Positions 5,161-61,872 of a stretch of 64,000 nt of DNA are shown piece after piece; position 1 is the stretch's first letter; each line of letters starts with the position of its first letter. This DNA is from Owenia fusiformis. Lineage: Eukaryota > Annelida > Polychaeta > Sabellida > Oweniidae. The DNA is taken from contig CAIIXF020000011.1 in assembly GCA_903813345.2 (NCBI GenBank), positions 11,442,842-11,506,841 on the forward strand. The letters run 5' to 3'. The notes below the pieces were generated by a model, which saw only the letters and a list, made by a program, of their open reading frames with translations, ran no database searches and was not told where the DNA came from. The translations under genes and the position numbers were made by a program.

Positions 5161-8100
5161 ATGGGGGATAATATAATTATCCCAGTGCCATGCCCATGGT
5201 CGGAAATGCCTTTTTACAAAGTGAATGACCAAAATGATTTCATAGAGGCCGCTCCAAATGGCAATTTACTTGCACATTTTGAGAATAAACTTTTCAACCC
5301 ACTTGAAATACAAGAGGAAATGAATGATGCTCCTGGATTTGATGTTACAACCAATGAAATTATGACAAAAAGTCAATATGTTACTTTAACTGAGTTAAAT
5401 AATAATCTGAATGCAACAAACAATGTAGATATGTCTATAGTACACTGTAATATTAGAAGTTTGCCATCAAATCAATGGAAGTTAGTTAATCTATTGTCAT
5501 CACTTGAGAAGGGAGTATCAATTGTTGGCCTTTCTGAGACATGGCTTTATGAGGATCAAAATTCACAATATTCTAAATTAATGAATTTCAATGGATATTT
5601 TAAATCAAGATCTACTAGAGGGGGTGGTGTTGGTTTTTATATTAAAGATACAATTAATGTTAAAGAAAGACCAGATCTTCAATTTAATAATTTTGGCTGT
5701 GATGTACTTACAATTGAGATTATTGTAAACAATGGTAAAAATATACTCTTAACTTGCATTTATAAGCCTCCTAATATAGATATAGAAGAATTTAATAATG
5801 GTCTAGACGTTTATTTAAATAATCTTTCAAGAGAAAACAAAACTAGTTATGTAATGGGGGATTTTAATATTGATTTATTCAAGACCAACCAGCATGAGTC
5901 AACTGAAAATTTTTATAATATCATGACGTCTTACAATTTAATACCACTTATTTATAAAGCAACCAGGGTAACTTCAAGTACAGCAACATTAATCGACAAC
6001 ATTTTCACAAATGATACTAAAACTGGTCTATGTGGAATAATTTTCAATGACATTTCTGATCATTTCCCTATTTTTGCTACTTTTAATAAACCAATTCAGC
6101 AGATTAAAATTGTTCAAAAATCAATTAGAAAATTTTCTGAAAATAATCTTACTACCTTTCAAGAAAAATTAGCCAAAGAATCATGGGCAGATACAATGAA
6201 TAGCGATGATACAAATACTTCCTACAATTTTTTTGAAGAACGCCTGAAAGAAATTTATGATGAAAGTTTTCCAATCAAATTGGTATCTTTTAAGTCCTAT
6301 AATAATAATGAAAAACCCTGGATTACTTCAGCTATTCTTGTATCGGTGAGACAAAAAAGTAAATTATATAAAAAATATCTTCGTACACCAACAAATCAAA
6401 ATAAGGCAAATTATAAAGTTTATTCTAAAATGTTAAAAAATATCATAAGATCAGCCCATAAGCATTACTTTAACAGAAAATTTGAGGAAAATCAAGGAAA
6501 CATTAAAGCTAATTGGGAAATTATTAATGAAATTCTTCAAAGGAAAAATAAAAATCACAATATCCCAGACACATTCTTCCATAATAATACTGAAATAACA
6601 AATAAATTAGACATTGCTAATCAGTTTAATTCTTTCTTTTCAAGGGTAGGTGAGACCCTGGCAGCAAAGATTCCTCCTTCAAACAAAAGTCCTTTAGACT
6701 ACATGAATAATATTGGTAGACAAGCTTCAACTTTATTTTTGAATCCGATCGACTCCAATGAATTAAACGTGGAATTATCAAAATTGAAAAACTCTGCGGC
6801 CGGTTTTGACGATTTCAAACCTTCCATAATTAAGCATTGTGGTAAGGAATTCCAATTACCATTATTACATATTTTCAATTTATCTCTTACAAATGGTGTT
6901 TTTCCTGACAAATTAAAAATTGCGAAGATAATACCAATTCATAAAAAGGAGGACAAACAGCTTTTTAATAATTATAGACCTATATCGATTTTACCAGTCT
7001 TCTCAAAATTACTTGAGAAACTTATGCACCATCGACTGACCTCTTTTCTTGATAAAATAGAAATAATGTATCTTTATCAATTTGGCTTTCGGGAAAAAAA
7101 ATCAACATTCATGGCAGTACTTACATTTGTTGAAAAAATCAGAAATTCTATAGACAAAGGTGAATTCTCTATTGGTGTATTTCTTGACTTTTCTAAAGCT
7201 TTTGATACTATTGACCATAATATCCTCTTTCAAAAACTCGATTTCTATGGAATACGAGGAGTAGCGCTGGAATGGGTAAAAAGTTACTTTTCTAATAGAA
7301 TTAAAAAAACTTGTTATATAGACACTATTTCAGATCCCGAGTCAATCACATGTGGAATTCCTCAGGGCTCTGTGCTAGGTCCCTTGTTTTTTATCATATA
7401 CATCAATGACATCTACCTATCTTCTCCTCGACTATTTTTTGTACTATTTGCAGATGATACGAATCTGTTAATACAAGGAAAAAATCTTAATGATATTACC
7501 AATGCTTTGAATGCTGAATTGATACTAATTGAGGAATGGATAGCCACAAATAAACTTTCGTTAAATGCAAAGAAAACTAAATATATCATATTTTCTTCTA
7601 GACAAAAGCAATATAATAAAAATGATATCAGTCATTGTGAATAATAAAATACTTGAGCAAGTGACACATATAAACTTTTTAGGAATTATAATTGATCAGA
7701 ATCTTACCTGGAAGAATCACATTACAGCAGTAAACATGAAAATATCAAGAACCATTGGTATATTATACAAAGTTAAACATTTATTGAATGCCAAAAGCTT
7801 ACTTAGTATATATTACTCTCTAATCTACTCATATCTTATTTATGGAAATATAATCTGGGGCGAAGCAGGCTGTACATTGCTTAATACTCTTCATCGTTCT
7901 CAGAAACAATTTGTAAGAATTGCAACAAATAGCGACTTTAGAGCTCACTCTTTACCTCTTTTTCACGATCTAAAAATCCTGAACATATTTCAGATAAATA
8001 AGCAACAAAGATATATATTCATGTTTAAATGGATCAATGACAAGGATAATTACAAACAAATATTTCCATATTTCTTCCAAACAGTTGAAAATAGACATAA

Positions 8101-8278
8101 TTATGATACAAGAAACAAGAAAACTTTCGACAAACCAAAAATTCGTGCAAACTATGGAAAATCAATGCTATCTTATTCTATACCTGATATTTGGAACCAA
8201 TTACCCCCACATTTTAAATCTATCAGAAGCATCATACTCATGAAAAAACAGACAAAAAAATATTTATTACAACTTTAA
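5161..8278 (+). pseudogene. LINE ORF2: endonuclease and reverse transcriptase, one frameshift
   Basis: The first frame runs from 5161 to 7644 (827 residues). It continues in the next frame to 8278 after a single-base shift in an A-rich stretch near 7610-7625. Residues about 91-310 are an apurinic-type endonuclease: HCNIRSL near 96, SETWL, MGDFN at 232-236, IDNIF and SDH at 299-301. The reverse transcriptase follows, with NNYRPISILP, FLDFSKAFDTID, the GIPQGSVLGPL block and the catalytic FADD at 763-766. The second frame has the usual C-terminal FLGIIIDQNLTW region. Such enzymes nick the target DNA and copy their own RNA at the nick. The break splits ORF2 just after the polymerase thumb, so this copy is probably not functional. 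Confidence 0.92.
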
Positions 8279-22020: not shown

Positions 22021-23200
22021 TCACAGGGCCGTCAGATGGGGGGGGGGGGGGTGCGATGGGCCCTTTGTCACCCCCTAAAAAAATTCGAAAAAAAAATTTT
22101 TGAAAAAAATATTTTTGTATTTTTTTTCATTGACTCATACACTATGAAAGTACCCAGAAAGCACCAAATAGCATCTTAAAATTGTAAAATTTTCTAGGGG
22201 TATTGGCCACCCCTCACACCCCCCACAAAACAATGGAAAAGTTCTAAATTTATTTTAGTGTTTTGTCTCAGACACTTTTAAAGTGCCCAGACATCATCAA
22301 ATAGCTCCTTGATATAGTTAGTGTTTCTGGGGGACTAACACTTGCTCCCCCTCTTGCATTTTGCACTTGCATCCCCACCCCACCTCTCCCTCTGGTACCC
22401 CCCCCCCCCCAAAAAAAAAATTGGATAAAAATTGTGATTTTCTCAAATTCTTTAATAGACTCATGCACTTTGAAAGTGTCCAGAAAGCACCAAATAGCGT
22501 AGTAAAATTGCAAAATTTTCTAGGGGGAGTGGGCCACCCCTCACACCCCAAACAAAACAATGGAAAAGTTCTGAATTTGTTTTATGTATTGTCTCAGACA
22601 CTTTTAAATTGCCAAGACTTCATCAAATAGCTCCTTGATATAGGGAATGATTCTGGGAGACTAACACTTACTCGCCCTCTAGCATCCCAAATCCACCTCC
22701 CCCTCTGGCAGCCCCCCCCCCCCTAAAAAAAATTGAAAAAGATAAGATAAGATAAAAAAAGTGATCGTTTTTCAATGTTTTTATTATTAACTAATACACT
22801 TTAAATGTGCCCAGAAGTACCAAATATCATCTTTAAATTGTAAAATTTCAAGGAGAGTTAGCCACCCCTCACATCCCCCACAAAACAAAAGAAAATATTC
22901 TGAATTTCATGTATTGTCTCAGACATCATCAAATAGTACCTTGATATGGTCAATGTTTCTGGGGGACAGCCCCTTGCTCCCCCTCTGGCACCCCACCCCA
23001 CTTCACCCTCTCATCCTCTTTGACACCCCCAAAAGAATTTGAAAAAAATGCACATTTTTCTTATTGACTCATTCACTTTGAAAGTGCCCAGAAAGCACCA
23101 AATAGCATCTCAAAACTGTAAAATTTTCTACGGGGAGTGGACCACTCCTCACACCCCCCCCCCCTTCACAAAACAATTGGAACATTTGGAAGTTGCATTT
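22020..23200. repeat. Tandem repeat array, about four units of 280-330 bp
   Basis: The phrase CCAGAAAGCACCAAATAGCA recurs near 22155, 22486, 22813 (diverged) and 23089. It is followed each time by AAAATTTTCTAGGGG, GGCCACCCCTCACACCCC, and, except in the last unit, GTCTCAGACACTTTTAAA. Runs of G or C (for example 22038-22050 and 22398-22411) join the units. Apparent proteins in this stretch are low-complexity artefacts. Confidence 0.8.
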
Positions 23201-23239
23201 GTTAATTCCAAACCAATATAGGGAGTAACCGAACCCCCC

Positions 23240-24500
23240 TCTGACTTACGCGATTTGATTTACGCGGCAAAAAATTGACAATTTTATATTCTCTTTAGTA
23301 AAAACCGCACCCCCCTTGGAGAAAAGTGTCTTACGGGCCTGCATCATTGTACGTCGTGCTATCTTATCTTGTTTGTTGCTCCATATGGATTTATAGAAGC
23401 TTGACTCTGTGTCTTGAATAAGGTCTTCTTTTGGCATTGGTAGAACTGTTGCCATGTAAGTAATTTGGGAAAGAATAGTAAAGATTTAACTAAGGTGATT
23501 TTTCCAAGTGGAGTAATGTCTCTTCCTTCCCATGACTTAATTATGTCTTTAATTCTCTTTTTAGCAATTCAGGTCTGCAATGAGTTGTCTGTTTGATAAA
23601 GGTATTGTGATCCCAAGCATGGTTACTTTATCTGCTGTAAATTTAATATTTAGTTCTCTACATGTTTGTTCTGTCTGTTGTTGTGCTTCTGGTTCTAAGC
23701 TCATATCTCCAATAATACCGACATCTGTTTTGTTTTTGTTTATTTTTTAACCTGAAGTTCTTTTTAACCTGGAATTTTTGGAATAAATTTATTGCGTTTT
23801 TCACTGATTCTGTTGACCTAAGTAACAGTGTAGTGTCATCAGCGTATTGGGATATTTTTATTTCTGTGTCATCAGCTTTGATTCCTTCTATTCATATATC
23901 TTGTCTTGACTGCCTCTGCTAATATTTCAGGACTGATAGAATGAATAGGTATGGGCTCAGTCGGCACCCTTTGCGTACTCCTCTTGAGACGTGAAAGTAG
24001 TCGCATGTGTAATCATTATTTATTACGGTGCTTACTGCATTTTTATAGAATGTCTGGACCAATTAACATATATCTGGTCCAAAGATTAAAGTACACGAGA
24101 GTTTTTTGTATGAAGTCCCATTCAATGGTATCAAAAGCTTTTTCAAAATCAATGAGCGTGATGATTCCCCATGTGTGATGTATTTCCAAATGTTCCATGC
24201 TGTCAATAATTAATCGTATATTTTCTCCATTGTGTCGGCCTTAAATAAAACCTGTTTGGTCCATCTTGATTATATTCTTTATGTCGGTGCATCTTGATCC
24301 TTTCTGCTATAGCTCTTGTAGCGATTATAAAGTCAATATTGAGGAGACTTATTGGTCGCCAATTTTTTAAGTCCAAAATATCTCTAGCTTTCTTTGGAAG
24401 TAGAGATATGACAGCACGTCTTTGTTCTGTTGACATTTCGCCGTTTTGAAAAGAAAGGTTAAGCTTTCTTTTAAAAGATTTAGAATGTCATTTTTGAAGT
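23240..24500 (-). pseudogene. Decayed L1/Tx1-like LINE reverse transcriptase
   Basis: On the minus strand, reading from 24440 downward and changing frame several times, the order is that of an L1-type polymerase. LKNWRPISLLN comes first (about 24350), then TLIDFEKAFDTIEW (about 24120-24160), RGVRKGCRLSPYLF (about 23950-23990), SQYADDTTLLL (about 23820-23855), and a C-terminal part with WSNKQDKIARRT (about 23370). Several stops and frameshifts make it inactive. The family differs from the CR1/Daphne-like copy at 5161. Confidence 0.82.
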
Positions 24501-24725
24501 CATGCTAAACCCCGGGATAAAACCAATGAAAAATGTACAAGCCAAAAAGCATGAGCTAACTCTCACATGAGACTTTTATGATGGTCTCAGCTCTCACCCA
24601 CTAGGCCTATAAAATTGCACTCCATTACTATTGAGATGATTTCCCGGGAATACATTGCCGTTTCTTCTAGTGTAATTCATAGGTGGCGCAAATATCCCTG
24701 ATATCAAAATTGTGAACCCCTTATT

Positions 24726-24738
24726 CTTCCTCTTTCTC
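24726..24738 (+). promoter_or_regulatory. RPL13A: 5'TOP pyrimidine tract of RPL13A
   Basis: A 13-nt pyrimidine run starting with C lies just 6 nt before the ATG at 24745. Ribosomal-protein mRNAs start with such a tract, which couples their translation to TOR signalling through LARP1. The transcription start is therefore predicted at the C at 24726, but no transcript was seen. Confidence 0.65.
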
Positions 24739-24744
24739 GTGAAA

Positions 24745-27700
24745 ATGGGTTTTCAGTCAAAGGTAAAATATGAGCGCAAACGTTTTCAAATTTAGTAATA
24801 ATTTAGGCAATAAAAAGTAATGAGTTGTAATTATATGTTTACACATGTGTCTATTCTTATAGCTGTATGTGTTTCGAAGGCTAATTTATCAGCACAAACG
24901 TCCGCATTTTGAGTTTGAATCTTTAAAAAATGTAGATATTTTTGTAAATCCAATATGGCGGCGCCCATGCAGCAACGTTGAACTATGTATTTCTAGTCAT
25001 TTCTTCCCTCCTATCTTGTCATACACGTGTCACAGACTACAGTTAAGTTATATTCTGCATTTCATTTGATTCCAGGCAACTTACTGTGCATGTTCAAAGT
25101 ATTTCTTTGGTGTTGTCGGAAATTGTTGATAAATATTGAAAGTTGACTTCCAGGACTAGCGTCAAGTAAACTCATCTAGGCTTACTCGAGTCTCTAGCCA
25201 ATTATTGTTGTTATCTCAAGTTTTTGGCTTTTTGATGACTTTGATATTTGTCACATTCAAACAAAGACATTAGATAGGTTGGATCGTGGAAAATGCTTTT
25301 CTGGCCTCTCTGTCCAACCAAAATCCCACTCATCATAATACTTGGAAATAAGAAATGATTTGGAACACCTTTTCCAACATGGTTTCGTGCTTAAACGGCA
25401 ACCAATGTGTTTCAATCTCCCATATACAAATTAGGGCTGCCATCATTAGTCGGAACGTCGACTTGTCAGTCAAAATGCAAGTTCGACAACGAAGTCGACA
25501 AAAATTCCCGTCATGTCGACAGCAAACGATATCAATACTTACTTGAAAATATCCAAATGGCCCCAATACATTTCAATACACATTTCAACGTGTTATGTGC
25601 GCGTATTCTGCGGAAATATTGTTCACATTCATTTCATTTTCAAAAAATAAATTCACCCGGAAGTTCCCTTCATGACTTCTCTTCTCTCTTGCGAGACGTT
25701 GTACGAGATTTCGCCCGAGCAGTCGAAATAAATCCCGGTCGAAACATTGCAGGTATTTGTCCCATTTTCGTCTATAATATTCTATTAACTTGGCATTTAG
25801 TAACAATATTAGGCAATTACATACCAATATGAATATAAGTTATATGAAGCTTTTCCCCGATAGATTTGGAAAAAACGAACCAACAACACAGAAATAATTT
25901 TTCTTTTTTTCCCGATGATTTTTTCTCCCTGGAAAGTTCGATTGTCGACAATATTTTCGACAGCAGAGTTCGACTGTCGACACTGACATTTGAGTTCGAT
26001 GGCAGCCCTAATACAAATACATGGTTATGATTTTGTTTCAATATGATATGTACACTGGTACTCACCTAGTTATTATCGCATCCTACGACCCCTTTAGATT
26101 GTGGTCGTAGGCCCATTTCATTGGTAAGCCTGTCTTTCTACAATGTCGGAGAATGAACTACGCATTGCACTATTAAGGTGACTGTTAACTTAATCGATTT
26201 TCAGAAAAAATTGAAAATTTCACAATCTTGAAATTTTCAAACTCTTTCTGAGAAGTCGTTTTTATTATTTCACATATGCTTGTGCACTGTAATCATTACA
26301 AAGACATCAAAGAACAACAAAAACTTTAGTTTGAGAAAAAAAGTGCCGTTTAAAGAATTTGAGAAGATTTTTTTCTAGGAGTAGCCCGTGAAAAACCGCT
26401 GATTCAAAATATCTGAACATTTCAGAAAATATACTTCAAACATATATCAAAAACGAAGGAGCAACGGAAATTTGAAAAATTACCCGATAAAAAAATTGGG
26501 ATCAAAATAAGGAAAAAAGTACACTTCCCAAATTGTTTTTTTTCTATTTTTTTAAATTTGTATGAGAGATTTCAAAATTCTAAAGCTCCTTCCATTTTGG
26601 GCTATATTAAAGGGATGTTTCAGAGAAATTAGAAAAAAAAATGTTCAGGGACCTTTGCCGTGCTACTCTTTTTGTCAATTTTTCTGTCACATTTTCAGAG
26701 GACTCAAATTCCCATTCCAAAATGTCTGCTGTTTCTATTTGCATTACCACAGTGAGCCTGGTTATATAAATGATAAGTGGAACTAAAAAATTGAGAGAAA
26801 ATCCAACCAAAAGACAGTTAATTTTGATGGTCAGATTATACTCAAATGCCATGTGCTTCCTGGTTTCGGCCATCTTGGATTTTTTGATTAAGTTATAAGT
26901 TACCTTAAATGACCTACCTCGATAGATTCCAGAGTATTTTAAAGTTCTTTTTATGTTGTTAGATCGCCAATTGTATGGATTTATCGGCAGAACGAAGATA
27001 TTTTAGTTGCTACATCGGAAATATCTCAGCAATTTTCAAAATGTCGGAAGGGGAATTCCCCAGAGATTTCCCTTATGACTGGTGCATGGCGGGAACTGAA
27101 TGGAGGAATTTGACGGTTGAAATAAGTTAAATATTACACGCAAATATTGCTATCAAAAACGAAAATATCTTCGTTCTGCCGATAAACCCATACAATTTGT
27201 GATTCAACTATATGAAAAGAATTCTAAAATACTCAGGAATGTATCGAGGTAGGTCATTTATGTGTGCAATGCATAGTTCATTCTCCGACATTGTAGAAAC
27301 ACAGGCTTACTAATGAATTGGGCCTACGACCACAATCTAAAGGGGTCGTAGGGTGCGATAAACCTAGTTACGCTGACGTATCGTCAGCGTAACAAGATGG
27401 AAGAACTTCCAAGCTTCCTTTTCGGCAAGATATTTTTATTTCTCGATTCTACACCGCTTATGAGTCAAGTTGTGGACAATAATTTGGCTCAAATTTATGG
27501 AAGATAGTCTAGTTTGAGAATATGCAGGCGATTTATGTTTGGTGTATTAATGAAAAAGCAATTCACATATTTAGTCCCTCGCTTTTGTTACGTTGACGAT
27601 ATTAATTCATGAATATTGTCACATTGGCAATATTCATGAAGATCATCAACGTAACAAAAGCGAGGGACTAAATATGTAAATTGCGTCTTCAATAATATAC

Positions 27701-30700
27701 CAAACTTAGAACCGCCTAACCGTTAAAATGCTCAAATTAAGAGTTTTGTTTTCACATTTTACCAACTCGCGATCTTCAAGGTTATGAACTTTTGGTTCTT
27801 TTTATTAATATTTCTCTTTATTCTGACGACTTTTAGAATAGACTTTTTCCGGAATACATCGGAACCAATCAAAATCCATGTTTCAGACTGGAAACCCTGT
27901 GAATCTTGGGTAGCCATGATAGTCAATCAGATTTGCTGATATAAATATACCAGGATTATAGCTCCTATATCAAGGTAGTGAGTTTGAAAATCTTGAAGCA
28001 GTTAATAATTTTTGCGTCCTAGGGACGTAAGTTGATTTTGATTTTTACGTCCAGCCTTATGAAATTTCCGTAAAAATGGCAAAAAAATGGCGTCAATGCA
28101 AACACTGTGTAGTCTATCAATATGGTTTGCCTTTAGTTTGATTCAGTCAGTGATGTTGTTTTACAGTACTAACTGAGCCAAAATGTTGCTTTGATTTTGT
28201 ATTCTTTATCTCATTTTACCAGAACATGTTAAAATATTTGTGTCTTTTGTTCCAGCCTATAATCATCGATGCCCGAGGGCATTTGATGGGCAGACTTGCA
28301 TCCATCACAGCAAAAACTATTCTACAAGGTAAGCAACATGAGAAGATATAAATGACATTCATTGAAGAGAAACTGGTGTGAAATATTTTGCCATTGATGA
28401 TTTGTAACTGCCTTTCGTTTGATTCAGTCTGTGATGTCATTTTACATGCACTACCAACTGAGGCAAAATTTGCAGTTGTATAACAAAATGTTAAACAGTC
28501 TTGGTTATCCATAATCACATTTATTTCATTTTGCAGGACAACGTGTTGTTGTAGTGCGATGTGAGGGAATCAACATCTCTGGTAGTTTCTACAGAAACAA
28601 ATGTAAGTTACAATTACCTGTGTAATACAGAATAAGGGATACCAAAAGCATGTTTATCTGTAGTCATTTTGCCAGTGATGATTTGTAACCGCCTTTCGTT
28701 TGATTCAGTCAGTGATGTCAATTTTACATGCACTACCAACTGAGGCAAATACTACTAATTGTTTCAAAGATGTTAGTGTCACAACTTCGTATCTAGAAAA
28801 TAAGAGATTGTAAGTCTCCAACTTTTGTGGATGATGATTGGTGGTCAACATCTGTAACAAATCGTATGACATTTTGCATTGTTTTGATTTTTTATTAGCA
28901 AGATAATTTTGAAATGTGAATATATTTCAGTGAAGTACTTGTCATTTTTGCGCAAGCGTCTGAACACCAACCCTCGCAGGGGACCTTTCCACTTCAGGGC
29001 CCCAAGCAAAGTCTTCTGGAGGACGGTGAGAGGTAAGTCGAGACATCCTCTGTTTATTTGTTATGTAGCCAGTGAAATAATCTCGAATGACACTCATTTG
29101 ATTTATTTTTGCATAATACAATTTTGCCAGTGATGATTTGTTACCGCCTTTCGTTTGATTCAGTCTGTGATGTCATTTTACATGCACTACCAACTGAGGC
29201 AAAATAGCAGAAGCTTACACACTTCTAAGTCTCTGAAATTTTGCTTTGTCCCATCCAAATCTAGAAATAATTTAATGTCATATTTTTGTTATTTGTTAAG
29301 GTATGGTTCCTCACAAGCTGACCCGTGGTAAAGAAGCTCTGGACAGACTAAAGGTGTTTGATGGCATTCCTCCACCCTACGATACTCAGAAACGTTTGGT
29401 GGTGCCATCTGCTCTCAAGGTTCTTCGCCTCTCCCCAAACAGACGAGTAAGTTCTTCTCCTTAATAAATAATTGTCTGGTTAACTATCCCAGCAATGTGA
29501 TTTGCTGCCTTGGTGTTGCTGTTATCCTGTTCACAATGACAATGAGATGCGTTATATGAGGTTTCTGTGATGATGAACATCTTACCTACATTGTTTGACT
29601 GAGTCAGTGATATAACACATTTCTGTACACATGGTACATCTGAGAAACCTCAAATTCGCTCGCTTTGATAACTTTTCTTGATTGTATTTGATAATGGAAA
29701 TGTGTAATGATATTGTAATAATTGATTTCATGGGGAATTTACCTGGAGTCCAATTCTGAACTTTTCCATAAATTTCTGGCGTAAATAATTAACGATATGA
29801 CAACTATACAGAAAAGGCAACAACTATTCTGAATTATTCCCTTAACCTGCCCAACAGGGGAATTTGTGTTCTAACGTTGCAAACTAGTGCGTTTTTGACA
29901 GTGATCTCTGAATATCTGTGTGCCCATGAAGCCATGAAGACCCTTGGACGTATGGGTGTTGCATCATTGGATTCTCTAAAAAATTGTAGCACCCTTGAGA
30001 AAATTACTTCTTATTTCATTTATAGTTGGAGATATATTTTCCCATTATGTCCCTACCATTGTATATATGCCTGAGGTCTGACGTCAATATAGCCTGAGCT
30101 TGCGAGTTTACATCTTTGCCAAAATTTGGAACGGATCCCCAGAAATGTTTTAGGGATCTTTGTCTGGTGTATCTCAATCACTTCCAGTTTTTGCAAAATC
30201 TGAAAAGGATTTGAACAAACATCAATATGATTGAGCATTTTCACGGGCAATTCTTTCAATAAAAAATTACTAGCTAGATTTAGTAGTTGAATTGAAGGAA
30301 TAGGTGTTACACTTTGTATTTTATTCCATTGTGGAAGTAATGGCATCAGAACAAAGTCCAAGCCCTAGTGTCTGCCAAATTAAAAAGCCGCCAATATGCA
30401 AATAAATGGCAAAATCGCCAAATTAACCCCATCTACAGTATTGAAAATATACGTAAAAATTCAGAAATGGCTTTATCATGAATATACGACAAAACCGTAA
30501 ATTAACAATTGAATTTACGAGACGGAATAGTTCAGAATCGGATTTGTGCAGTGAAACTTTGTCTAGGTTTAAACTAAACTAAATGTAGGTCGCTTCATTG
30601 TCAAATATACTGTACGCCCGGTATTATTCGCGAGCTTTAATTTCGCGGATTTTGCGAAAACACGGTTTCGCGGCTATTAAATTTCGCGAATACTGTATTT

Positions 30701-32509
30701 TATCGTATTCGGGGATTCCCCAGTATATGATGTCCAATCAAATTGCAGGCTACGATCACGTGAACAATCGTGCGCTTTCATTGCCTCGCATGCGCATAGT
30801 AAAGTCATGGAGTTGCACAGTACTATTGAAGTACTATAACTCGATCCAAACTAGTAGATAAAACGAAATGCATCAGAGCCCCGGGTAAAAACAAATTCCC
30901 GGGGATTTAATTTGCAATTTCGCGACGATAATTTTTCGCGATTTTAACACCCTCGCGAAAAGCGCGAAAGTTAATCGCACGCGAATAATACCGGGCGTAC
31001 AGTAACTTGTTTTCCAAAGCTGTGTGGGTGCAATATCCTCTTGCTTCTGTTCTATGGAGAGATATGACTTATCTTGTAAAATGTTTTGTTAACATGGATG
31101 TTCAGTTGTTCTTTGAACTCATCAATGTAATTCAAACATTAGAATATGGCAGAAATATATCTTTCAGGTTTCAATGATGACTAAACAACTTACCTACATT
31201 AACTGAGAGATCTCTGTGATAATAACATTTGAATTGTATAGATCTGAGAAACCATGAATCCATTTACACCCAATAACCCAGATGCGAGAAGAAATAATCT
31301 TGATTTACGTCATTAAAAATTCAAAATTCAGTCAAAGTAATATCATATTTGAAATCTACATGTAAAATTACATCTAAAAATGTGGTTTTAAAAAGTGTTT
31401 ATCAACTTTGAAAAATTAATTTTCTTTGAAAATGTGACTTCTAGCTCGGGGAGATTCCCCATAGACCCAATGCTATAAAATTACAAAAAATGAAATATCT
31501 TTTCTTTTAGTGGACAGATAATATTTTGCTTTACTGGACATATTTTCATTAGTATAAGAATCAGACACAAAAGGGTTATATGAAAATTGAGCCACTTAAA
31601 TTGATAATATTCAAGTTTAAGGGAACTTTCTTATATACCTGCCATGTTAATTGACCCGAATCAGCCACCTGGTGGGGAAACTGGTAACTACCTACTCGCA
31701 TTTGGGTAATTGGAAAAATAGAAATATCATGAAAATGGCATATTTCGACAAAATTTGGTCCAAATTGTAAAAATAAGAATTGCAGCAGCTTGATTAAATG
31801 AGCATATGTAATGTGATCATCTCCATGTGTAGTTTACATGTACCTGTGTAACAGCATGTCATTGTCATATTTCAGTTCTGTGTGCTGGGACGGTTATCTC
31901 ATGAAGTAGGATGGAAGTACCAGAACGTGATCGCCACACTTGAGGCCAAGCGCAAAACAAAGTCCAAGAAATTCTATGAAGCCAAAAAATCTAATGCGGT
32001 ATGTTTTTTGTCACATCACGTATGTGTGTTAAGAAAGATAATAAGTTTTCACCAACGTAAATTTTGCCAATGATGATTTGTAACCGCCTTTCGTTTGATT
32101 CAGTCAGTGATGTCATTTTACATGCACTACCAACTGAGGCAGAATTTTCAACCACCTAGAAAACCTAGGGAATGAGTCAAATACTGATATTTTTATGCAA
32201 TATTTAGGTTTTGATAAGATCTTTCTTCTCATAGACATTGAATTGTAATTTTACCAAAGAATTTTACATCTGATAAAAGTAACAAAATGCTTCCTAAAAA
32301 TCTACTTGAGCCTATATTGTATAATTGTTTTGAGTAAAGAGTATCTATTTCAAGTATGATTTCATTGCAATTCACTGCAAGAGTATAAAGCTTATTTATA
32401 ATACGGTTTTATGATTTGCTTCCAGAATCTGAGGTCTAAAGCCATGAAGATTGCTATCCAGAAGGCACCAGAAGCACAAAAGGTTATAGAAAGCTATGGA
32501 TTCGCTTGA
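24745..32509 (+). CDS. RPL13A: Large ribosomal subunit protein uL13 (RPL13A), complete
   Basis: Seven coding exons: 24745-24762, 28256-28328, 28537-28602, 28931-29032, 29301-29446, 31876-31998 and 32426-32509. Phases agree at every join and total 203 residues, the same length as human RPL13A. Exon 1 encodes only MGFQSK; it was chosen because it follows a TOP tract, ends in a phase-0 donor (AAG/GTAAAA) and gives the usual K-P-I start of the uL13 fold. Conserved blocks include [43 protein letters not shown] and DGIPPPYD. The protein binds 28S rRNA in the 60S subunit, and vertebrate RPL13A also joins the GAIT complex. Every intron holds a box C/D snoRNA or a relic, as in the vertebrate gene. A poly(A) signal is at 32541-32546. 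Confidence 0.95.
25432..26010. mobile_element. hAT-type MITE (579 bp) with 8-bp TSD, in RPL13A intron 1
   Basis: The ends TAGGGCTGCCATC and GATGGCAGCCCTA are inverted, and ATACAAAT flanks both (25424-25431 and 26011-26018). The arms carry TCGACATGTCGAC-like words, also seen in the related MITE at 42472. There is no transposase. Confidence 0.9.
26072..27361. mobile_element. hAT-like foldback element (1,290 bp) with 8-bp TSD, carrying a nested MITE
   Basis: The ends share TTATCGCAYCCTACGACCCC followed by TTTAGATTGTGGTCGTAGGC, in inverse orientation. ACCTAGTT flanks both ends (26064-26071 and 27362-27369). The inner arms carry TGACCTACCTCGATA, CAATTGTATGG and GCAGAACGAAGATATTTT. The left arm is split by the TTAA-flanked element at 26177-26904. 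A partial copy at 46004-46215 lacks the insertion. Confidence 0.88.
26177..26904. mobile_element. TTAA-flanked MITE (728 bp), piggyBac-like, nested in the hAT element
   Basis: The inverted ends are GGTGACTGTTAACTTAATC and GATTAAGTTATAAGTTACC. TTAA stands at both borders (26173-26176 and 26905-26908). Removing it restores the GCATTGCAC..TAAATGACCTACC junction seen in the right arm and in the partial copy at 46.1 kb, which supports insertion. TTAA duplication is the piggyBac signature; no transposase is present. Confidence 0.82.
27367..27393. repeat. Perfect 12-bp-arm palindrome GTTACGCTGACG
   Basis: GTTACGCTGACG, a 3-bp loop (TAT), then CGTCAGCGTAAC. It overlaps the right TSD of the hAT element in RPL13A intron 1. 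Similar arms (GTTACGTTGACGAT) form a second hairpin at 27550-27690. Confidence 0.7.
27550..27690. repeat. Hairpin-forming inverted repeat (about 140 bp)
   Basis: GCAATTCACATATTTAGTCC plus CTCGCTTTTGTTACGTTGACG at the left is mirrored by CAACGTAACAAAAGCGAGG plus GACTAAATATGTAAATTGC at the right. The arms are about 50 bp with few mismatches. It is probably a very short MITE. Confidence 0.75.
28115..28182 (+). pseudogene. Decayed U33/U32-like C/D snoRNA relic in RPL13A intron 1
   Basis: The stretch matches the snoRNAs in the later introns over GTTTGATTCAGTCAGTGATG and ACTAACTGAGCC. It lacks the C box (TGATGA), and the D-box guide has lost ATGCACTACC. It is probably a dead copy. Confidence 0.6.
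28387..28467 (+). ncRNA. SNORD33: Box C/D snoRNA, U33-like (with U32-like D' region), RPL13A intron 2
   Basis: A terminal stem TTTGCC/GGCAAA closes a C box (TGATGA, 28395-28400), an internal C' box (TGATGTC) and a D box (CTGA, 28458-28461). The D-box guide ACATGCACTACCA matches human U33, which directs 2'-O-methylation of 18S rRNA at Um1326. The target A lies five bases before the D box, as in human. The middle CTTTCGTTTGA resembles the U32 D' guide. The base before the C box is T, slightly off consensus. Confidence 0.85.
28668..28749 (+). ncRNA. SNORD33: Box C/D snoRNA, U33-like, RPL13A intron 3
   Basis: Nearly identical to the intron 2 copy: stem TTTGCC/GGCAAA, C box TGATGA at 28677-28682, D box CTGA at 28740-28743 and the same guide ACATGCACTACCA. 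One extra A lies after the C' box (TGATGTCAATTTT). Confidence 0.87.
29123..29203 (+). ncRNA. SNORD33: Box C/D snoRNA, U33-like, RPL13A intron 4
   Basis: C box TGATGA at 29131-29136, D box CTGA at 29194-29197, stem TTTGCC/GGCAAA, and the guide as in the other copies. It differs from its siblings at only a few positions (for example GTTACC for GTAACC). Confidence 0.87.
29557..29652 (+). ncRNA. SNORD34: Box C/D snoRNA, U34-like, RPL13A intron 5 (first copy)
   Basis: A 10-bp terminal stem TGAGGTTTCT/AGAAACCTCA encloses C box TGATGA (29568-29573), D' box CTGA (29599-29602), C' TGATA (about 29608) and D box CTGA (29640-29643). The D' guide TTACCTACATTGTTTGA matches human U34, which guides methylation of 28S rRNA (U2824 by human numbering, from memory). 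The guide before the D box (ACATGGTACAT) is not one I recognise. Confidence 0.82.
30114..30438. mobile_element. CTGTAGAT-type MITE, partial copy, in RPL13A intron 5
   Basis: The right end GCCAAATTAACCCCATCTACAG followed by TA is that of the full copy at 34080-34573. The left half (TTTGCCAAAATTTGGAA, GGATCCCCAGAAAT) matches its interior, but the left terminus is not clear. Confidence 0.65.
30610..31002. mobile_element. MITE (393 bp) with CTGTACGCCCGG ends, in RPL13A intron 5
   Basis: CTGTACGCCCGGTATTATTC at the left is the exact inverse of GAATAATACCGGGCGTACAG at the right. TA flanks both ends (30608-30609 and 31003-31004). TA duplication and the CTGTA start suggest a Tc1/mariner-type non-autonomous element. 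The interior is rich in TTTCGCG words. Confidence 0.85.
31167..31253 (+). ncRNA. SNORD34: Box C/D snoRNA, U34-like, RPL13A intron 5 (second copy)
   Basis: Stem GGTTTC/GAAACC, C box TGATGA (31175-31180), D' box CTGA (31203-31206), C' TGATAA and D box CTGA (31244-31247). The D' guide CTTACCTACATT is shared with the first copy and with human U34. The sequence before the D box (TTGTATAGAT) differs from the first copy, so only the D' target appears conserved. Confidence 0.75.
32063..32143 (+). ncRNA. SNORD33: Box C/D snoRNA, U33-like, RPL13A intron 6
   Basis: C box TGATGA at 32071-32076, D box CTGA at 32134-32137 and guide ACATGCACTACCA. The stem has one change (TTTGCC/GGCAGA). It is otherwise almost the same as the copies in introns 2-4. 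Confidence 0.86.
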
Positions 32510-36900: not shown

Positions 36901-39900
36901 CAAGGAACTTCAATTTTACACTCGTCTCAAATATTTACATCTACCTTGGGCAACTGTCGATTGGATATGACCCACACTGAGTCTCTCACCTTTTTTGCCT
37001 CAAAGAGATGTGTTTGTCCCTCTTCCCTCCAAAGACCTTCATCAATCTGCTTGATCATTTCCTTAGAGTTCACTTTGGCATCTTCAATAGGTTGGTGCCA
37101 TTTGGCTTTCATGTATGACTGAAAACAAGAAATATTGATCAAAATCAGAAATATGATCCTCTTCTTGGAGACATTTATAGATGCTTTGTAGAGTTTTTCT
37201 CTAAACACTATATCCTTTATTCATTTCACCAGAAGACAAAACTCCTTGTATGAGCAAAGAACAATTTTTTGCTTAATCACAGGCTGGTATCGAAATATTT
37301 GTCCGCTGTGACGGAGCATGCTATTTTTCATAAAAACACAAAGAATACTTCACGATTTATTTTTTAACTCATATGTTTCGTTATGCCATACAAAATTACT
37401 TACTCCATGCAATGGATATATCATTTGCGGGTAACTTTCACTTCTGTTTGAAGTCCAATTACGCTGGGAAGAAAAGCTATTGAAAATGGCGCCGGAGTAT
37501 CATACTTCAAAATGTACCATTTCTTGTTTAACTTTCTAATGGCACGATATAGTGACACGATAATATTTACACATGGTTTCAGCATAACTATGAAGGTATA
37601 AATGAGATGTTGATGTATTTGGTCTTTTTAATTCTTTTATAAAAAATAATGTTTAATTTTTTTGTCCGCTGTGACGGAGCAGTTGCAAATGTGAACTGTG
37701 AAAATGCTCCGTCACAGCGGACAAAAAATATTAATATTATTTTTTATAAAAAAAATTAAAAAGACCCAATGCATTAATATCTCATTAATACATTCAGAGT
37801 TATGCTTAAAACATATGTTAATATTATCATGTCACTATATCATGCCATTAAAAAGTTAAAAAAGAAATGGTACATTTTAGAGTTTGATACTCTAGCGTCG
37901 TTTTCAATAGATTTTACTCCTAGCGTTATTGGACTTCAAACAGAAGTGAAGGTTACAAGCAAATGATATATCCATTGCATGGAGTAACTAATTATCTTTG
38001 ATATAACGAAACATATGAGTTAAAAAATAAATCGTGAAGCATTCTTCGTGTTTTTATGAAAAATAGCATGCTCCGCCACAGCGGACAAATCTTTCGATAC
38101 CAGCCTGTGTTAATACCTAAATATATTTTGGTGAAAATGTGATATTTTCAAATGAGCAAACGAAAGTAGATGTGTATACATTCTAAACAGCCATAATATG
38201 TTTTCAGATCTAGTTGATGTGTGGAGACTTCAAATGGAAATATATTTCTCAAATGGATGTAAATTCTGAACTACCAATTATGAAAAAGTCTAATATTTGA
38301 CGTCAAAACTAGAAAACTACTTTAACTGCATAATTATTTTCAAACAAAAAACTAAAATTCATATTTTTCATCAGATTAATTCAATAATCTAGTCTGGCCT
38401 GAAGTTTTTGACCATGTACTGTACTTACTTCTGATAATTCATCTAGGTATTTTCCAATGCTTGGACCGAATTTTTTAGCTACTAAGGCGAACATAATCCA
38501 GAAAGAGATGAGTTCAGAAAATGTATGGTCGATGACTAATAGTTCTTTAGAAAAAGCTGTTAAGACAACACCAGTTCCGAGTACATATGGACCTGAAATG
38601 AAATTAAAGAATTTCAGACTGGAATCAAATATGCTCAAAGGTTTCCTCTTGTCATGTCTATTACATGGCAGGGGTTTCATAAATAGGAAGTAACAGGCAA
38701 TGAACTGCCTGACTTCTTGATTTAATATACAACTTATAGAGTGTTAACGACACCCTTGATGACACAATCCTTACTAACTCTATGGTGATTGATTCTTAGA
38801 TTGTCCACACTAACAGCTAAACTTGCACTATGGATTTCACAATATTGTGGTAATGCAAGTATGAATGCTATCAGTGAAGGTATATTTCTATAACACACTA
38901 ATGACTCATGCACTTCTGATGGTACAACCAATAAAGTTGTTGGACACATTTTGGATGCAAAAACATCTTTTAACATAAGTCCCAGAAGTGGATCTAAGGA
39001 ATGTGTATGATTTAATTCTATAAACTTAAGACACATGTTTCATTTTTCCATATTGCTCAGTGGAACCCTACTAAGCCAAAATTTCCTAAAATTTAGTCAG
39101 AAAATAATTTTAATGCTAATTCTCCCTTTCGCGGTTCGCTGTTTGAATCAGAACGTTCGCAAATATGTTCCGAAAAAGCACTCAAAAAGGACAAAATTTG
39201 ATTGGTCAATATTTTCCCACTATGCATTTCGCGTAGCTATTTGCGTGACCCGAAAGTTCTAAATCAAACTTATTACGAAATTTTGTTTTTACACCCGCAC
39301 GCTAAATAAAACAATGACACCAATGGAATTATTCTTTTTTGTCATTGCTTTAATAGTCAGTATACCGAGTTTAATCAATAAAAGATTGTACAATGAACAA
39401 CAAAATTCGGAAACGAGTACTATAGATTTGCTTTCGGACCACTGAACAGATTGACCTAGATAATAGCCACGCGTCTTCTTTGGTCTACTGCTCAGTTGTT
39501 TTTGGGTTTTCAACGTAACTCTATAATGTAATTTGAAGATGAACACTTTTATTCAGTTGTCGCATTGATGTTGCAGTTTGTAGTGCGGTAAGATTGGCAT
39601 GAAAGTATTGAAAGTCGAATGGAATTGTTTTTTCCAATATGGCGACTAGTCAACTGATCACGTGACCTTCTCTTCCGGAATATTTTCTCACTTTTCCATC
39701 GTCGTTTTCACCACGCTATGAATCAATACAATGAAAAAATAGCTGTTATATTAAGATTAATATGAGATCAATCGTTTCTAATAATTTTTTCTGTACTCTC
39801 GTACAGGAATATGAACGAATATATCGTTTGAAAAATTGGTGTGAAAATCCCCATGTTAAACCTATGAGGGAAAACAAGGAAGTATAAATTTGTTCCTCCG

Positions 39901-45001: not shown

Positions 45002-61872
<16,871 letters not shown>

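Follow-up and report, generated by a model that had tools for sequence, protein, structure and literature searches.

RPL13A and the snoRNA units in its introns

We analysed a window of 64,000 nucleotides (nt) from the annelid Owenia fusiformis (GCA_903813345.2, contig CAIIXF020000011.1, positions 11,442,842 to 11,506,841 of the forward strand), which contains the ribosomal protein gene RPL13A and, in the introns of that gene, a set of box C/D small nucleolar RNA (snoRNA) units. The rebuilt gene has seven exons at 24745-32509 (+), separated by GT-AG introns; its frame stays open over 203 codons up to the stop, and its product matched Pfam Ribosomal_L13. Exon 1 (24745-24762; ATG at 24745, MGFQSK, phase-0 donor) was the sole exon 1 candidate with a donor score above 3 within 23001-28250. 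Directly upstream lies the pyrimidine-rich tract CTTATTCTTCCTCTTTCTC, which by eye is 5' terminal oligopyrimidine-like (tract and exon together 24720-24762) and presumably resembles the tracts of other ribosomal protein genes. After an intron 1 of 3493 nt, the remaining exons follow on the same strand at 28256-28328, 28537-28602, 28931-29032, 29301-29446, 31876-31998 and 32426-32509, the last with the stop codon. An earlier note on this DNA had placed a C/D unit or relic in every RPL13A intron, within 28115..32143. Gene model and unit positions agree with RPL13A as the host and with all six introns being occupied; the gene starts further left than drawn in the note, at exon 1. Searching the genome with the residues after exon 1 (tblastn) recovered exons 2-7 within the window and, in a second locus, one piece of exon 5, with no matches beyond these two places. 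Among viral contigs no RPL13A relative was confirmed with a query that carried one wrong residue (W for L).

The Rfam SNORD33 model (RF00133, gathering score 44 bits), run on the window, gave four matches above the cut-off, all inside RPL13A. These U32/U33-type units, named i2, i3, i4 and i6 after their introns, lie on the forward strand at 28385-28469 (53.6 bits at 28387-28467), 28666-28750 (58.5 bits at 28668-28749), 29121-29205 (59.6 bits at 29123-29203) and 32061-32145 (56.4 bits at 32063-32143). Pairwise they differ by 1-4 substitutions across alignments (2-4 over 84-85 aligned bases in one of them), and all four have C and D boxes and a terminal stem. These four copies, at 90 nt, also emerged from an ungapped repeat search, together with a fifth piece of 38 nt at 28128. 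The relic U33-type unit of intron 1 (28122-28184, +, 71 nt before the 3' splice site) was recovered by a model derived from these four units (41.6 bits, E 1.6e-7); it has no C box and no D' guide, and its D guide is shortened. The near-identical U33-type copies of introns 2, 3, 4 and 6 and the relic in intron 1, as first described from the letters alone, were thus both recovered, and at the level of sequence i2, i3, i4 and i6 are confirmed as box C/D snoRNA genes of the SNORD33 family. A repeat pair in intron 3 had suggested an additional C/D unit near 28820, which was dropped; the four-copy model was silent there up to E 5.

Intron 5 (29447-31875) holds two units of another type, i5a (29559-29651, +) and i5b (31166-31255, +), about 1.5 kb apart. 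Both carry the SNORD34-type guide TTACCTACATT, and i5b has the guide, terminal stem and 3' end in common with i5a. Their description as two U34-like RNAs therefore holds for the guide but not for the model score, since the SNORD34 model (RF00147, cut-off 38 bits) gave 35.3 bits (E 4.5e-4) for i5a and 25.6 bits (E 0.15) for i5b; on the score, the pair thus falls under the refuting condition that the earlier note had set. Against the 28S ribosomal RNA (rRNA) of one protist (L004), the D' guides form 13 pairs (i5a) and 12 pairs (i5b) at the U34 (U2824)-type site; for the D guides, a blind scan of two protists' rRNAs gave no convincing partner. Because two C/D units share one intron, intron 5 is a candidate source of a small nucleolar long noncoding RNA (sno-lncRNA), although only as a prediction: an RNA of about 1.7 kb, bounded by the two snoRNAs, would remain after exonuclease trimming. 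In animals one snoRNA per intron predominates, and two per intron can yield sno-lncRNAs (PMC11028025; here and below, articles are cited for excerpts of their text).

Two inverted-repeat elements were also seen in the introns of RPL13A. A near-perfect palindrome at 27548-27694 in intron 1 is probably a small inverted-repeat transposon; the MIR837 model matched both of its strands (64.3 and 58.9 against a cut-off of 117), which we took as a mobile-element hairpin. The second element, at 30605-31005, lies between i5a and i5b and has ends that read approximately TACTGTACGCCCGGTATTATTCGCG by eye.

Guide sequences and their predicted rRNA targets

In human, U32 targets 28S A1511 and 18S G1328 and U33 targets 18S U1326 (PMC6466398), and the A1511-type site is served by both U32 and U51 (PMC6667457; PMC6466398). 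Judged by its guides, the SNORD33-family RNA of O. fusiformis RPL13A is a composite of the two, with a U32-type D' guide and a U33-type D guide. The label U33-like given to the copies in the earlier note thus fits the D guide (18S U1326) and not the D' guide (28S A1511). With the organism's own 18S rRNA, the D guide forms a duplex of 12 pairs, one of them G-U (-21.5 kcal/mol); opposite its fifth base, counted from box D, stands a U that we take to be human U1326. The partner stretch TGGTGGTGCATG was present in all three own 18S pieces examined (L048, L049, L051), and the paired letters of the guide are identical across all eight family copies found in the genome. A U32-type D guide to 18S G1328 was not found; the register is that of U1326, and the genome run, with 59 of 96,064 candidates scored, gave no additional member of the family above the cut-off.

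The D' guide ACCGCCTTTCG fits the usual 28S form CCCGAAAGATGGTGAACT poorly, with an internal mismatch and a wobble; this form was taken from L001, L004 and L006 with a pattern that demanded it. Four places in the O. fusiformis genome match a 28S query, and the two that cover the D' site (C501, C108) both read CCCGAAAGGCGGTGAGCT with the core CGAAAGGCGGTGAG. At the A1511-type site the own 28S (L049/L050; C501, C108) has CGAAAGGCGG where the usual form has CGAAAGATGG. An assembly-wide pattern permitting both forms gave two matches, both of the GGCGG form, and none of the usual form CGAAAGATGGTGAA; the backward control gave 0. On the own 28S the D' guide forms 11 uninterrupted pairs, with position 5 facing an A that is presumably human A1511. 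The duplex reaches -21.3 kcal/mol for i3 and i6, -19.1 for i2, where one further change leaves a G-U pair, and -22.8 for i4, where one change lengthens it to 13 pairs. The corresponding values on the usual form are -12.1 for i3 and i6 and -9.2 and -13.9 for the other variants. Shuffled D' guides reached -21.3 at the own site in 3 of 2000 cases.

The window copies read CCGCCUU where the Rfam family consensus has CCAucuu, and both changed rRNA bases inside the D' duplex are matched by guide changes. Because guide and 28S have changed in step at two bases, this double-sided change is strong evidence, drawn from sequence comparison, that D' would act as a working guide. Under this assignment the predicted methylation bases (in brackets) are CCGA(A)AGGCGG in 28S and GUGG(U)GGUGCAUGG in 18S. 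The mismatch with the usual 28S had prompted a second candidate target for the D' guide, the 18S A1031 site; it was dropped, as the own 28S gave 11 pairs and the own 18S reads GAGCGAAAGTCAG there.

Several observations weigh against working guides. The C box of i2 reads UUGAUGA instead of RUGAUGA, with U for R at the first base, and the own ribosomal DNA copies used are partial and lie on small or rearranged contigs. In the blind scan of two protists' rRNAs, both the D guide and the D' guide failed to exceed their shuffled counterparts, and the best blind site of the D guide lay elsewhere in 18S, with a score of 27 (shuffles: mean 22.6, maximum 29, n=30); the D site itself differs in these two protists. 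Finally, a guide typed from the Rfam consensus pairs modestly with the usual 28S (-9.9) and at -5.8 with the own 28S, so the contrast between guide and consensus is less clean than that between guide and rRNA.

A decayed RPL13A fragment in a snoRNA array

The genome run of RF00133 scored 59 of 96,064 first-look candidates, and its counts are therefore lower bounds. It returned at least eight family members above the cut-off, with four in the window, three in the second locus and one on another contig (C5), and the next-best match had 29 bits. Of 36 matches in all, the 28 lower ones (at most 29 bits) were left unused; in 11 of 14 prokaryotes run as controls, the search also gives signals below the cut-off. 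A genome-wide DNA search likewise found three near-identical copies at C11:26,092,908-26,093,910 and one on C5, plus the relic. The C5 copy is bordered left and right by intron 6 sequence (84% over 139 nt). It departs from the other seven copies in four columns, and one of these changes makes its D box TTGA; it is probably dead, though it still scores 51.9 bits.

The three copies of the second locus (A, B, C) lie in a fragment of RPL13A. The window segment 28308-29714 (+), from the end of exon 2 to intron 5, is present there in collinear but decayed form at C11:26,092,835-26,094,332 (L015 5836-7333), on the same chromosome and 14.6 Mb away, and a further intron 5 piece (window 31291-31716, 79.6%) lies 2.2 kb downstream of it. 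Compared with RPL13A, the exon stretches of the fragment differ at 56 of 282 positions (19.9%), with 54 gap columns and frame-changing gaps, and the introns at 103 of 453 (22.7%), a count made without the lower portion of intron 3, which aligns poorly (75/180; 178/633 with it). The three U33 copies differ at only 6 of 254 (2.4%), far below the introns (p=2e-15, Fisher) and the exons (3e-11), while exons and introns do not differ from each other (p=0.41). On a neutral duplicate branch about 29 changes would be expected in the U33 copies, and at most 6 were seen (P 1e-7). Since exons diverge like introns and the U33 copies far less, the sequence pattern indicates that the reading frame is free to decay and the U33 units are not.

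These figures also bear on a simpler account, in which the second locus is a dead RPL13A fragment whose snoRNAs are intact by chance or youth. It would fit the frame-changing gaps in the exons, the part of intron 3 that can barely be aligned, and the U34 copy, whose 14 changes in 92 positions are not clearly under the intron rate (p=0.13; neutral-branch test P 0.051). We nevertheless hold it to be improbable, given the gap between the divergence of introns and exons and that of the three U33 copies. All seven splice dinucleotides are also retained (four donor and three acceptor, read from the alignment); 29 core splice bases are unchanged, for which P is about 0.0009 at average divergence as a rough figure. 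The neighbours of the fragment, moreover, are snoRNA introns.

Both fragment ends adjoin what by eye look like remnants of a different C/D unit, for which we use the label X (L015 ~5826 and 7390), and the stretches bordering the ends are supported by repeat families D4 and D9. X has at least 13 matches in the genome: nine in the locus at 26,091,264-26,109,596, three beside exons of a nearby NOPS-domain gene (C11 26,073,911-26,075,380) and one on C9. The 12 copies on C11 thus extend over 26.073-26.110 Mb (L036, L015, L037). The D' guide of X forms 11 pairs with the 18S stretch CGCGGTAATTCC of protists, and the same stretch occurs in the own 18S (L048 and L049). In the array, introns with X alternate with exons of 76-91 nt. 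Nine of these exons were examined and eight resolved (one with an uncertain start), and seven of the eight are interrupted by stops in every frame. Four H/ACA-like units, which the SNORA3 model scored at 27.0-36.9 bits, below its cut-off of 51, are interspersed with the X copies downstream.

In our reading, the second locus is a putatively transcribed noncoding snoRNA host that has incorporated part of RPL13A. On balance, we lean towards a snoRNA-only host in the course of assembly. A fragment of RPL13A, a coding snoRNA host, would have landed inside an array of intronic snoRNAs, one of which also lies beside exons of the nearby NOPS-domain gene; the fragment would then have lost its reading frame, and selection would retain only its introns, splice sites and guide RNAs.

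Spread of the copies from intron to intron

The cores of about 85 nt are 95-99% identical among the RPL13A copies, and the identity ends at the terminal stem, the adjoining 30 nt agreeing at only 5-13 of 30 positions. We rejected whole-intron duplication as the source, because it would have carried the flanks along. A shared core with flanks near chance instead supports the spread from intron to intron within RPL13A that the first reading of the sequence had put forward. One set of comparisons points the other way: 3 of 20 local flank comparisons reached the 5% shuffle level (10, 4 and 7 of 200; uncorrected, with about one expected).

The likeness of the copies could owe more to ongoing gene conversion than to selection on each of them. 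Self-limited conversion would give just such identity that stops at the unit with flanks near chance, and paralogues inside RPL13A differ from one another (2-4 differences) roughly as much as orthologues do between the two loci (1-3). Against it, the copies do not cluster by locus in any of the 13 variable columns, and the T/A variant of column 46 tracks position and not locus in all three orthologous pairs (i2/A, i3/B, i4/C). Columns 10, 22, 25, 43, 46 and 55 serve to distinguish the individual copies. We regard gene conversion as a rather unlikely explanation. From the column 46 pattern, and mainly from that one column, we see no sign of homogenisation after the split of the loci; conversion before it may have occurred. 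Even less probable, in our assessment, is that the copies spread by snoRNA retroposition in the manner of a long interspersed element (LINE). The unit size of the copies, the stray copy on C5 and the presence of a LINE with reverse transcriptase within the window would suit such a route. Against it, visual inspection of the 30-nt flanks of the five units examined revealed no poly(A) tail, words repeated between the flanks did not exceed 6 nt, the stray copy bears intron 6 flank on both sides, and PMC8178906 favours cis recombination for C/D families.

Other features of the window

The LINE-type retrotransposon lies at 5161-8278 (+); a single long frame encodes its endonuclease and reverse transcriptase, and a second frame that overlaps the first comes after it. 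An H/ACA snoRNA, SNORA53, was found at 38800-39007 (-) with 94.2 bits (cut-off 38). An exon encoding mitochondrial ATP synthase subunit b (Pfam Mt_ATP-synt_B) lies shortly downstream of it, so the snoRNA is probably intronic. At 51900-52900 there is an array of about 1 kb of a 4-base repeat (TGTC/GACA) with several open frames.

Relation to known snoRNA hosts

Vertebrate SNORD32A and SNORD33 (RF00133) likewise belong to the C/D class and reside in RPL13A, and the O. fusiformis copies share with them the U33 D guide and the U32 D' guide. In human the targets are divided between U32 and U33, whereas here a single RNA, present as four intact copies, combines the A1511-type and U1326-type guides, and its D' guide is altered together with the 28S site. 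The composite may be the older state, because the RF00133 consensus also combines a U32-like D' guide with a U33-like D guide. SNORD34 (RF00147) has the same host and guide TTACCTACATT; the difference here is two units in one intron, both under the cut-off. The premise that vertebrate RPL13A hosts single copies is correct by name, but Rfam places U32 and U33 in the same family, of which human RPL13A carries two members in addition to SNORD34 (PMC4378963).

What the earlier note took to be new, the local amplification, did not prove to be so, as intragenic copying is the usual way in which C/D families grow (PMC8178906, PMC2653536). In human, a single host encodes every expressed member in 59.5% of C/D families, and duplication of part of the host is mentioned as a route of family growth (PMC8178906). 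Chicken C/D snoRNAs show intragenic copying too (PMC2653536), and as in O. fusiformis the cis-duplicates of chicken and of sponge RPL13A (PMC3412847) are paralogues in neighbouring introns of one host. The sponge snoRNA is H/ACA where ours are C/D; it was duplicated to a neighbouring intron in Suberites (PMC3412847), and the words SNORD32, SNORD33 and SNORD34 are absent from the main text of that survey. The host position may, as the earlier note put it, have been kept since early animals. In mouse Rpl13a, a SNORD33-SNORD34 sno-lncRNA similarly unites two C/D snoRNAs in one excised intron, but arises by alternative splicing (PMC4234469), whereas here intron 5 itself holds two units.

GAS5 and UHG are noncoding hosts that carry many snoRNAs in introns between frameless exons. 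The second locus, which may or may not form one transcribed gene, differs from them in being partly a visible decayed ribosomal protein gene. A gas5-like host is named in PMC2653536; the excerpts of PMC2653536 and PMC3412847 contain no decayed host fragment that keeps its snoRNAs. Titles and abstract openings in the literature, with subscription journals thinly covered, gave no account of this amplification or of a decayed RPL13A snoRNA host. Intragenic copying being already well known, what gives the locus its value is the decayed-host stage, together with the matched change of guide and rRNA.

To our knowledge, noncoding snoRNA hosts may derive from coding ones, with intermediate stages seldom visible. 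As the same segment exists here both as a living gene and as a decayed copy, change in exons, introns, splice sites and snoRNAs can be measured separately. The matched guide and 28S change provides strong evidence of the comparative kind that the copies would work as guides. Taken together, the snoRNA copies in living and decayed RPL13A suggest how guides may multiply within a coding host and outlive it.
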